DNA of 44,281 nt, taken from positions 1-44,281 of IMG/VR virus record IMGVR_UViG_3300030108_002375. One strand, written 5' to 3'. A model generated the notes under the pieces. It made no database searches, was not told the origin of the DNA, and saw only the letters and a list, made by a program, of their open reading frames with translations. A program made the translations under genes and the position numbers. The stretch is from a virus. Within the stretch, counting starts at the first letter, position 1. The number at the start of each line of letters is the position of its first letter. Shown here one piece after another: positions 34,184 through 42,924 of the stretch.

Positions 34184-34443
34184 AACACTATAACAATATC
34201 TTGTGCTTTTATAACACGATAAATTGTTTTATCTATTTCTATTTTATGACCAGCGTGCCTATCATAAAATATAGTGTCATTTTTTACTAATCCTTTTACA
34301 TCATCACCAACAGATATTATTACAGCTTCTACATATCTAATATCTTCTCTTTGATTTTCTGCAAGAAGTAAACCACCTTTAGTTTTAGTAGTACCTTCTT
34401 TTACTTGTTGTATTATTAAATTTTTACCTACTGCTTTCATCAA
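34180..34443 (-). CDS. groES: Co-chaperonin GroES (87 aa)
   Basis: The protein begins MMKAVGKNLIIQQV, as in GroES strand 1. A mobile loop follows with Lys/Thr-rich sequence ending in GGLLLAEN (compare GGIVLTGS in E. coli). The closing strands are KNDTIFYDRHAGHKIEIDK and then YRVIKAQDIVIVL. GroES caps the GroEL cage during folding. It is slightly shorter than the 97-aa E. coli protein. The gene follows groEL and overlaps it by 20 bp, the opposite of the bacterial groES-groEL order. Two tandem Met codons are possible starts. Confidence 0.85.
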   Translation of the reverse strand: MMKAVGKNLIIQQVKEGTTKTKGGLLLAENQREDIRYVEAVIISVGDDVKGLVKNDTIFYDRHAGHKIEIDKTIYRVIKAQDIVIVL

Positions 34444-35971
34444 CTCTAATATTATTAATTACACAATCAGTTGATAAAATAGTAGTAGCTACTGAAGCTG
34501 CATTTTGAAGAGCGCTTTTAGTTACTAACAATGGATCAATAATACCACTGTCAATCATTTTTACCATATTTCCTGTAACAACATCAATACCATGTCCTTC
34601 TACAACCATTGGTATATCATTTTTAATACCAGCGTTTTCTAGTATGGTTTCATATGGTGCGTGTATCGCTTTAAACAGTACTTCTTCGCCTAAACCTTTA
34701 TGATCTATATTTGACGCTGCATTAAGTAAGGCTATACCACCACCTGGAACTATACCTTCTTTTATTGCAGCTTTAGTAGCACATATAGCGTCTTCAACTC
34801 TATCTTGTTTTTCTTTCAACTCAATATCAGAGTTGGCGCCTATTTTTACTATTGCTATTTTAGCCGCTAACATAGCTAGTCTTTTTTCCAACTTAACTAC
34901 TTCGTTTGCTGTATTTTTTTTGGTTAATTTATTTTTAATTTCATGTATAACTTCTTTTACTTGATCAGAAGTTTCATTTACTTGTAATATAGTTTCATTA
35001 TCTGTTGTAATGCTTTTTACGCATTTACCTAAATACTCAACTTTAATTAAATCTAAATCATCACCTAAATCTTCATTTATAATTGTAGCGCCTGTTAATA
35101 AAGATAAATCATCAAGTAATTGTTTTCTATTTACACCAAATGTAGGGGCGTCAACAACGTTTACCTTAATATTACCCTTTATTTTGTTCATAGCTAGAGC
35201 CGATAAAACACCTTTTTCTAAATCGCCTATAACAAGCAAAGGTTTATTGTTTTTTATAACGTACTCTAGCACTGTTTGGATTTGTCTTATTGAATCAACC
35301 TTAGACTCTATTAACAGTACTAACGGATTATCTAGTTCCGCTGATTGACTTTCAGCATTAGTAATAAAATGCCTATTTGTCAAACCTTTATCGTATTGAG
35401 CGCCTTCAACAATTTTTATTTCTGTTTTACCAATAGCAGAAGGCTCCATCATTACTACACCTGTAAGATCTACAGCTCTAAACGCGTCTGCAATTAACTT
35501 ACCTAACTCTGCATCGTTATTTGTAGATATAGTAGCAATGTTATCAATCATATCTCCTTCTACTGAAACAGATATAGATTCTAAATATTTTACAACTTTT
35601 TCAACAGCGCTGTTTATTTCTTGTTTTAAACTTCTTGAATTAGTTTTATCAACAACTTTATAAGCTTCTTCTAATATAGCATGTGCTAATATAGTAGCTG
35701 TGGTTGTACCGTCACCAGCTTGTTGAACTGTTTTACGCGCTGCTTCTTTTAAAAGAGTAGCGCCCATGTTTTCTACAGGGTCTAACAAAACTATTGAATT
35801 TGCTACGGTAACACCATCTTTAGTAATAACAGGATTGCCTTGAGCATCTTCTAATAAAACACACTTACCGCTAGCTCCAAGTGTGGAGCTAACAGCTTGT
35901 GTAAGTTTTGTTATACCTTTAAATACTTCTTCTCTAGCATTATTGCCAAAGTTCAGATTTTTAACTATCAT
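34424..35971 (-). CDS. groEL: Chaperonin GroEL (515 aa)
   Basis: Full chaperonin signatures are present. TLGASGKCV (30-38) replaces TLGPKGRNV. KDGVTVA (51-57) and GDGTTTAT (86-93, with Asp87) bind and position ATP, and VEDAICATKAAIKEG contains the hydrolysis Asp394, followed by VPGGGIALL. The equatorial, intermediate and apical order is intact. It is ~30 residues shorter than E. coli GroEL and lacks the Gly-Gly-Met tail, ending in VDESSR. The domain plan suggests a working ring-forming protein. It is probably used for capsid or tail-protein folding. The leader ATTTAATTTAATTTAATTA precedes it, as before the 82-aa gene. Confidence 0.95.
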   Translation of the reverse strand: MIVKNLNFGNNAREEVFKGITKLTQAVSSTLGASGKCVLLEDAQGNPVITKDGVTVANSIVLLDPVENMGATLLKEAARKTVQQAGDGTTTATILAHAILEEAYKVVDKTNSRSLKQEINSAVEKVVKYLESISVSVEGDMIDNIATISTNNDAELGKLIADAFRAVDLTGVVMMEPSAIGKTEIKIVEGAQYDKGLTNRHFITNAESQSAELDNPLVLLIESKVDSIRQIQTVLEYVIKNNKPLLVIGDLEKGVLSALAMNKIKGNIKVNVVDAPTFGVNRKQLLDDLSLLTGATIINEDLGDDLDLIKVEYLGKCVKSITTDNETILQVNETSDQVKEVIHEIKNKLTKKNTANEVVKLEKRLAMLAAKIAIVKIGANSDIELKEKQDRVEDAICATKAAIKEGIVPGGGIALLNAASNIDHKGLGEEVLFKAIHAPYETILENAGIKNDIPMVVEGHGIDVVTGNMVKMIDSGIIDPLLVTKSALQNAASVATTILSTDCVINNIRVDESSR

Positions 35972-41967: not shown

Positions 41968-41987
41968 GATAATAATATAAAATAAAA
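41968..41987 (+). repeat. Leader repeat A before first rightward gene
   Basis: GATAATAATATAAAATAAAA is identical to 43638-43657. It sits 11 bp before the ATG at 41999, so it probably lies at or near the transcription start or in the leader. A related but longer form precedes the genes at 42393 and 43018. Confidence 0.6.
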
Positions 41988-41998
41988 CAATTAATAAA

Positions 41999-42235
41999 AT
42001 GACTTATACTAAATTACAATCACTACTTCCAAATGACGAAATTCACTATGTTGATGACTGCGAATGTTTCTTTGAAGATAATGAACTTAATATCAATGAC
42101 TATAAAAAATATAAATTTATAATATTTTCTGAAACTGTTGACTATTTTCAAAACACTATTGACACTTTAATAAATAATAATATTAAACATACAATTGAAG
42201 TTGATGAATGGAATCTAGAATATATATTAATATAG
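41999..42235 (+). CDS. Small acidic protein, first rightward gene (78 aa)
   Basis: The protein is strongly acidic, with Asp/Glu runs (DDCECFFEDNE) and many Tyr, Phe and Ile. It has no basic patch, so it is an unlikely DNA binder. Acidic early phage proteins often act on host nucleic-acid-binding proteins, sometimes as DNA mimics; that is only a suggestion here. It follows the divergent region and leader repeat A and is the most promoter-proximal gene of the rightward block. Confidence 0.6.
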   Translation: MTYTKLQSLLPNDEIHYVDDCECFFEDNELNINDYKKYKFIIFSETVDYFQNTIDTLINNNIKHTIEVDEWNLEYILI

Positions 42236-42319: not shown

Positions 42320-42360
42320 CGAAACTAAATACTAATAACATTAGATAATACTAATATAAA
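42320..42360 (+). promoter_or_regulatory. Repeat element B before the gene at 42393
   Basis: The element starts CGAAA, has AATACTAATAAC in the middle and ends TTAGATAATACTAATATAAA. The last 20 bases are identical at 42990-43009, and the whole differs from element C at about four of 40 positions. It is placed ~33 bp upstream of the ATG and is likely a promoter. Confidence 0.65.
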
Positions 42361-42392: not shown

Positions 42393-42626
42393 ATGACAAA
42401 CACTATTAACTCTAAAAGATTTGTAGTACGTAAATCTTTAATCGGTAAAAACACAACTATTAATGTTGAATTCAAAAATGGTAAATCTTGTACTTACTCT
42501 CATGATAAAGTATATGAAATTATGAAAGATACACTTACAAAATTACCTTGCTGGTTAAAGTATAACTCATATACAAGTTCTACAAATGTACCTGTAAAAG
42601 TTAGAGAAGTTGTTGAAGTAAAGTAA
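42393..42626 (+). CDS. Small basic protein (77 aa)
   Basis: The protein is basic, with beta-like alternation (KRFVVRKSLIGKNTTINVEF) and an inner helix (DKVYEIMKDTLTKL) ending near a CWLKY. It ends in a Val-rich strand (PVKVREVVEV). No motif is recognised. It follows repeat element B, and its last codons form the left arm of a hairpin. Confidence 0.55.
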   Translation: MTNTINSKRFVVRKSLIGKNTTINVEFKNGKSCTYSHDKVYEIMKDTLTKLPCWLKYNSYTSSTNVPVKVREVVEVK

Positions 42627-42641: not shown

Positions 42642-42685
42642 TCTAGTCTTGGAGCAGAGGTGGGTTTCGATTACTCACACTAGAA
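42642..42685 (+). ncRNA. tRNA-like minihelix with T-loop
   Basis: TCTAGT (42642-42647) pairs with ACTAGA (42679-42684). Next to it GTGGGT (42660-42665) pairs with ACTCAC (42673-42678), with one G-T pair, around the loop TTCGATT, the classic T-loop. The stacked stem is 12 bp, as in the acceptor plus T arms of tRNA. The 12 bases between (42648-42659) leave no room for an anticodon arm, and CCA is not encoded. It may be a truncated tRNA, an attachment-site remnant or a tRNA mimic. Confidence 0.55.
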
Positions 42686-42699
42686 CTAAACATATAACT

Positions 42700-42924
42700 A
42701 TGCGAATATTTAAAACTTATAACACTAAATTTCAATGTGATTGGTTTCACTGTGAAATAAATAATGAACACTACTCATCACCTCATCGTAAAAATGTAGA
42801 GGCTTGGCGTGACGACAAGTTAATCAATGCTGATTACTATAAAGAGTTAGCAAAGTTAACTGATGGTGCTATCGCTGAATACTATGCAAGTAAAACAAGG
42901 TGGGATAATTATACTGGCGACTAA
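42700..42924 (+). CDS. Small protein (74 aa)
   Basis: The ATG at 42700 is chosen. An earlier TTG (42649) would be translated through the tRNA-like element. The protein begins with basic beta strands (MRIFKTYNTKFQCDWFHCEI), then a His-rich loop and helices (AWRDDKLINADYYKELAKL, TDGAIAEYYASKTRWD). The function is unknown. Its stop overlaps an ATG (TAATG) of a doubtful small frame. Confidence 0.55.
   Translation: MRIFKTYNTKFQCDWFHCEINNEHYSSPHRKNVEAWRDDKLINADYYKELAKLTDGAIAEYYASKTRWDNYTGD

Follow-up and report, generated by a model that had tools for sequence, protein, structure and literature searches.

The window analysed here is a virus record of 44,281 bases (IMGVR_UViG_3300030108_002375), with matches to phage families for terminase, portal and GroEL. 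The terminases nearest to its own are those of an unclassified spring-water phage and of Flavobacterium, Cellulophaga and Tenacibaculum phages. Structural genes lie on the minus strand, where a phage-encoded GroEL is also found (34424-35971), and a plus-strand run of small unknown genes begins at about position 41,999. Within this run, a tRNA-like minihelix (42642-42685) separates two ORFs, and the features of the locus are as follows:

42344 to 42360, plus strand: promoter-like motif GATAATACTAATATAAA, heading a two-gene unit (the 77-aa and 74-aa ORFs)
42393 to 42626, plus strand: 77-aa ORF upstream of the minihelix, used as the anchor gene for relatives; 76 viral contigs hold a relative
42642 to 42647, plus strand: 5' strand of the acceptor-like stem, TCTAGT, paired with 42679-42684; double compensatory changes in 6 of 6 pairs among relatives
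42648 to 42659, plus strand: 12-nt joint CTTGGAGCAGAG, with a D-loop-like TGG (GG at 42651-42652) present in nearly all relatives
42660 to 42665, plus strand: 5' strand of the T-like stem, GTGGGT, paired with 42673-42678; compensatory changes in 6 of 6 pairs
42666 to 42672, plus strand: T-like loop TTCGATT; TTCGA is invariant in alignment A1
42673 to 42678, plus strand: 3' strand of the T-like stem, ACTCAC; compensatory changes in relatives
42679 to 42684, plus strand: 3' strand of the acceptor-like stem, ACTAGA; compensatory changes in relatives
42685 to 42688, plus strand: discriminator-like A (42685) and CTA (42686-42688), the latter at tRNA positions 74-76
42700 to 42924, plus strand: 74-aa ORF downstream of the minihelix, its ATG 11 nt past CTA

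In the minihelix, the acceptor-like stem and the T stem thus have 6 bp each, the joint between them is 12 nt long, the T loop reads TTCGATT and A-CTA follows; all 12 pairs form in the window, one of them as G-U. An earlier note on this DNA had described the same loop, the two 6-bp stems and the 12-base joint, and this description is exact; the direct stacking of 6 bp on 6 bp that it reported is true of the subtype found in the window, the commoner geometry being 6 bp, one unpaired nucleotide and 5 bp, which also amounts to 12 layers. RNAfold returns the minihelix structure together with a weak 3-bp hairpin within the joint. The folding energy is unremarkable (z of -1.2, with 25 of 200 shuffles folding equally well) and the case for the minihelix therefore rests on comparison. 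A tRNA-minihelix descriptor identifies one site in the window, versus a mean of 0.1 in shuffled windows.

ARAGORN reports no tRNA in the window, and Rfam offers neither a family for the minihelix nor a tRNA match in the window, even at an E-value of 10 on the local stretch. The 12 stacked layers of acceptor and T arm and the TTCRANN loop of a tRNA are present; assignment to the tRNA family (RF00005) was rejected on account of the missing anticodon arm and of the mere 12 nt joining the stems. Assignment to tmRNA (RF00023) was rejected as well, given the 12-nt joint, the lack of a tag reading frame or pseudoknots and the absence of an Rfam match in the window; tmRNA matches in relatives are only partial and sub-threshold. 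Two relatives carry a 71-80-nt tmRNA-like RNA that has no tag domain and ends in A-CTA (L044:5084-5154 and L052:4348), the one in L044 being such a sub-threshold match.

The promoter-like motif, written as GATAATAN{0,3}ATATAAA, occurs four times in the window where 0.02 copies are expected by chance. Its copies, at 41968, 42344, 42993 and 43638 on the plus strand, are found only at the heads of groups of small plus-strand genes. It lies upstream of the 77-aa ORF in 21 of 25 relatives and, in the 25 relatives examined, never between this ORF and the next gene past the minihelix. Since the motif heads the unit and is absent from its interior, the minihelix probably sits inside a single transcript with both flanking genes, as motif and strand suggest. 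The 77-aa ORF has no PHROG match, and tblastn against cultured phages gave none either; in relatives, unrelated genes take the place of the 74-aa ORF.

Among the 76 contigs with a relative of the 77-aa ORF, 68 had enough sequence behind it. A minihelix with a joint of at most 15 nt is present there in 34 of the 68 (44 when longer joints are allowed), versus 0 in 30 dinucleotide-shuffled sets. Some relatives have none, which indicates that the element is dispensable there. Another contig holds an identical 43-base copy, with flanks only about 84% identical and a different next gene. Across 25 distinct elements in alignment A1, which was used because the MAFFT alignment A2 had put the T stem in the wrong place, double compensatory changes occur at every one of the 12 pairs and 94.9% of cells pair, compared with 56% after shuffling and 28-55% when slid; no variation is seen in TTCGA or in the joint's first G. 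The TGG of the joint was found in relatives without being required by the search, and covariance model R1 matches 32 of 34 whole related records. The earlier note had judged the pairing unlikely by chance and had named a lack of compensatory substitutions in homologues among the findings that would speak against it; the comparison with relatives bears it out on both points, and we regard the structure as real with near certainty. In T stems, 25 cells are G-U and 2 are A-C, an excess which argues that selection acts on the sense strand as RNA; in acceptor stems the excess is weaker (17 versus 9).

CTA stands where a tRNA has CCA in about 36 of 40 relatives, including elements whose acceptor itself contains CTA, and the initiator-like tRNA-Met genes located farther along the array in related phages also end in A-CTA. 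Taken together, the TGG joint, the CTA register and these tRNA-Met genes make the minihelix resemble the tRNAs of those phages minus their decoding half. A phage tRNA-Met with an initiator-like end, in which CTA replaces CCA, is found for instance at L003:4583-4655 and in other relatives.

Phage contigs with this shape number at least in the hundreds. In IMG/VR, the pattern AATGGTT..GTTCGATTC..CTA gives at least 120 rows, and 114 of 125 form the full helix among the matches listed. A second pattern, free of any acceptor or 3'-end condition, gives at least 120 rows as well, 124 of them distinct among the matches listed; a flush acceptor helix is present in 83 of these 124 listed matches, versus 6.5 (maximum 13) with 3' strands swapped between elements, and the three outer T-stem pairs in 107 of the 124 versus 11.7 after swapping. 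CTA was rejected as a universal 3' end, as the unbiased scan yields CAA, CGA, CTA and others; it had looked universal because the CTA-selected scan inflated it. A strict descriptor detects 221 elements in 2.26 Mb of fetched loci and 0 in the reversed sequence, the 221 being no density since these loci were picked for carrying the motif. In bacterial-named genome contigs, 16 of 36 matches form the helix, several of them in what look like misbinned phage contigs, and one contig of Bacteroides neonati MS4, a likely prophage, has a minihelix (L255:1374-1419) adjoining an anti-repressor gene. Mycobacterium phage LittleE carries two, behind a gene that is not followed by a same-strand gene. A nucleotide search of cultured phages with the minihelix region gave chance-like matches only, and R1 finds no match in the terminase-related cultured or complete phages elemo, phi19:3 and MW202828. 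Weak matches in phi38:1, Gundel_1 and Aeromonas phage Akh-2 were set aside, since they resemble for the most part the 3' half of an annotated or ordinary tRNA and not a minihelix, as was a candidate in Achromobacter phage Axy11, which has a T arm and no flush acceptor.

Of 219 elements placed relative to genes, 43% are flanked on both sides by same-strand genes, versus 3% at random; for these, the medians are 10 nt after the stop and 35 nt before the start. About 40% fall inside naively called ORFs, many of which are probably spurious. Arrays occur in some relatives: a Lachnospiraceae MAG (L254) has 9 minihelices in 7 kb, where a gene is mostly followed by a minihelix at its stop codon, in many cases by a small hairpin, and then by AGGAG and the ATG of the next gene, and L171 has 6 to 8 depending on the method, in a similar alternation with the leader CTAAATTTTTTANNATG. 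These arrays are mostly gene-minihelix-gene, and the minihelix abuts or overlaps the stop codon. At L299:1096-1770 (minus strand), five near-identical minihelices are spaced by about 150-200 nt with no ORFs between them. Of the 78 unbiased elements, 31 are followed by a hairpin that starts 0-8 nt downstream, versus 9.5 (maximum 17) after shuffling. A second structured motif, GGTGAC..CGAACC..AAACTGG.., is located just upstream of minihelices in relatives, at L026:2745-2850, L029, L030:2733-2778, L053 and L055, and has no Rfam match in the three loci scanned (L026, L029 and L053). Some arrays also include a larger tRNA-like element, AACTAGG...TCTAGTTACTA, with a 52-65-nt middle (L016:4280, L020:4810 and L021:4578).

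From the comparative evidence, we propose with moderate confidence that the minihelix mimics a tRNA and punctuates polycistronic phage mRNA, which the tRNA maturases of the host would cut there. Between two co-transcribed genes, the message would carry a tRNA top half made up of acceptor stem, TGG, T arm, discriminator and a non-CCA end, and these enzymes would handle it as a pre-tRNA. Gauging the 12 stacked layers of acceptor and T stem from the elbow, RNase P would cut before 42642; RNase Z would cut after the discriminator A42685. The bicistronic mRNA would thereby be split: the upstream message would end at or near the minihelix, and the downstream one would gain a defined short 5' leader, with a small hairpin at its start in many relatives. 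Cutting may involve RNase P, RNase Z or both, one of them possibly dominating, and could affect message stability or expression. Among the three readings offered by the earlier note, the evidence favours this one, i.e., an RNA that would be processed by tRNA enzymes.

RNase P prefers substrates ending in RCCA; the window has ACTA at this place, and CCA is found in 3 of 78 unbiased elements. The enzyme reads a 12-bp stem, T loop and elbow, and is known to cut some phage RNAs and mRNAs, including the M3 RNA of phage phi80 (PMC10731613; PMC4919913). The stack, loop and elbow expected of its substrates (PMC10731613) are all present here, with 6+6 bp in the window, 6+1+5 in relatives and TGG in the joint. 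The precursors that RNase Z cuts, on the 3' side of the discriminator, are CCA-less, and a U at most 2 nt from the discriminator stimulates the enzyme about 200-fold (PMC10100781); the A^CUA end of the window and of most of its kin has both properties. Given the varied 3' ends of the unbiased scan, the rule of a U at +2 holds in the window's lineage and not generally. Like tRNA-type punctuation, the minihelix lies between genes that are probably co-transcribed and, in some relatives, is repeated along the unit, the window having a single copy. Since the window element has the structural features that RNase P and RNase Z read, except for RCCA, a maturase-cut punctuation mark is the best-supported explanation. 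Counting against it are the ACUA end itself, the varied 3' ends of the unbiased scan, the elements inside naive ORFs, the L299 copies with no intervening ORFs, the LittleE copies with no following same-strand gene and the relatives of the 77-aa ORF that have no element.

The LittleE copies would suit a different role, in which the minihelix would only stay on the upstream message as a 3' end that protects it, possibly with a CCA tail. It would then be comparable to a plant-virus tRNA-like structure and be generated by RNase Z or by exonuclease trimming from downstream, with no RNase P cut. The contact with the upstream stop codon and the CCA-less end in tRNA register also agree with such a cap, and sequence alone fits cap and two-sided cleavage alike. 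However, the 12-layer spacing and the elbow are exactly what RNase P measures, and we consider a simple cap unlikely. The arrays of up to 9 copies, and the L299 series in particular, could instead mean that the released minihelix acts in trans, for example as a decoy for RNase P, RNase Z, the CCA-adding enzyme or EF-Tu; this is improbable, as minihelices are often tied to gene boundaries, the sequences of their acceptor and T stems are free to vary and show no common aminoacylation identity, and the window and many relatives have one copy only. There is a similarly slim chance that the element is a cis regulatory hairpin acting in transcription pausing, translation coupling or decay control, bound and left uncut by tRNA-recognising factors. 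Its place within the transcription unit and the proximity of the next start codon are in line with this, but the joint retention of T loop, TGG and tRNA-register 3' end would be left unexplained, and no terminator-like U-run follows the minihelix in the window.

A DNA-level site, either a remnant of host tRNA attachment or an attC-like folded recombination site, would account for close relatives sharing an identical minihelix and differing in the next gene. It is nonetheless very improbable: G-U far exceeds A-C in T stems, pairing is kept while sequence varies, and the tRNA loop bases and 3' register are conserved. The earlier suggestion that a tRNA 3' end was left here as an attachment-site remnant is likewise unsupported: both acceptor strands covary, relatives differ almost wholly in sequence, and copies reappear behind one gene after another. 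The idea of a trimmed tRNA may still describe the origin of the element, but not decay, since compensatory substitutions keep every pair. A chance fold or a functionless decaying tRNA gene, to which the unexceptional energy and the real tRNA genes farther along the array in relatives could point, is refuted by covariation and also by the swapped-strand and reversed-sequence controls.

The proposed punctuation mark has several partial parallels. In animal mitochondria, tRNA-shaped marks between genes guide cutting by RNase P and RNase Z and so release the messages, as we infer for the minihelix, but those marks are real tRNAs whereas the phage element has neither anticodon nor D stem. To our knowledge, the phi80-induced M3 RNA, the C4 RNA of P1/P7 and the E. 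coli hisCD mRNA are isolated cases in which T loop, TGG and discriminator do not all occur together. They are non-tRNA segments cut by host RNase P through a 12-bp-like stem (PMC10731613), as may be true of the minihelix which, in contrast, is widespread, covarying and repeated. The tRNA-like domain of tmRNA also combines an acceptor stem and T arm with a D-loop that has no D stem, and the 71-nt RNA of L044 partly fits the tmRNA model, but the minihelix is only about 44 nt long and has no tag-coding or pseudoknot domain. RNA C (species 1 RNA) of bacteriophage T4 is a stable phage RNA with a T arm at its 3' end (GGGTTCGAATCCC); unlike the minihelix, it is 139 nt long and lies within the T4 tRNA cluster, and no common geometry is evident. 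Gut phages carry RNA devices around tRNAs, namely the theta ribozymes (PMC10879173), RNA-processing devices of phages of Bacteroidota and Bacillota whose tRNAs mostly have no encoded CCA; these are self-cleaving and sit beside real tRNAs, whereas the minihelix is substrate-like and has no ribozyme fold. Finally, plant-virus tRNA-like structures, such as that of TYMV, are viral RNA mimics of the tRNA top half, but they are terminal, belong to RNA viruses and are in several cases aminoacylated, while the minihelix is internal, belongs to DNA phages and has no aminoacylation identity.

No published description of the minihelix was found in a search of open-licence papers; as far as this literature goes, its ingredients are already known and an anticodon-less, repeated phage element is not. 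The wider proposition, to which we give about even weight for and against, is that DNA phages of several bacterial phyla share a portable, previously undescribed tRNA mimic of about 44 nt, lacking an anticodon and placed after individual genes, at which host RNase P and RNase Z would cut operons into messages with defined, hairpin-protected 5' ends. If true, the essential tRNA maturases of the host would serve phages as a general mRNA-cutting machine, a bacterial-virus counterpart of mitochondrial tRNA punctuation. Short tRNA-like matches in phage genomes would then have to be viewed with caution, as not always being decayed tRNAs, and a large number of minimal substrates of natural origin would become available for RNase P and RNase Z. 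Operon processing in uncultured phages would, in addition, become readable from sequence.
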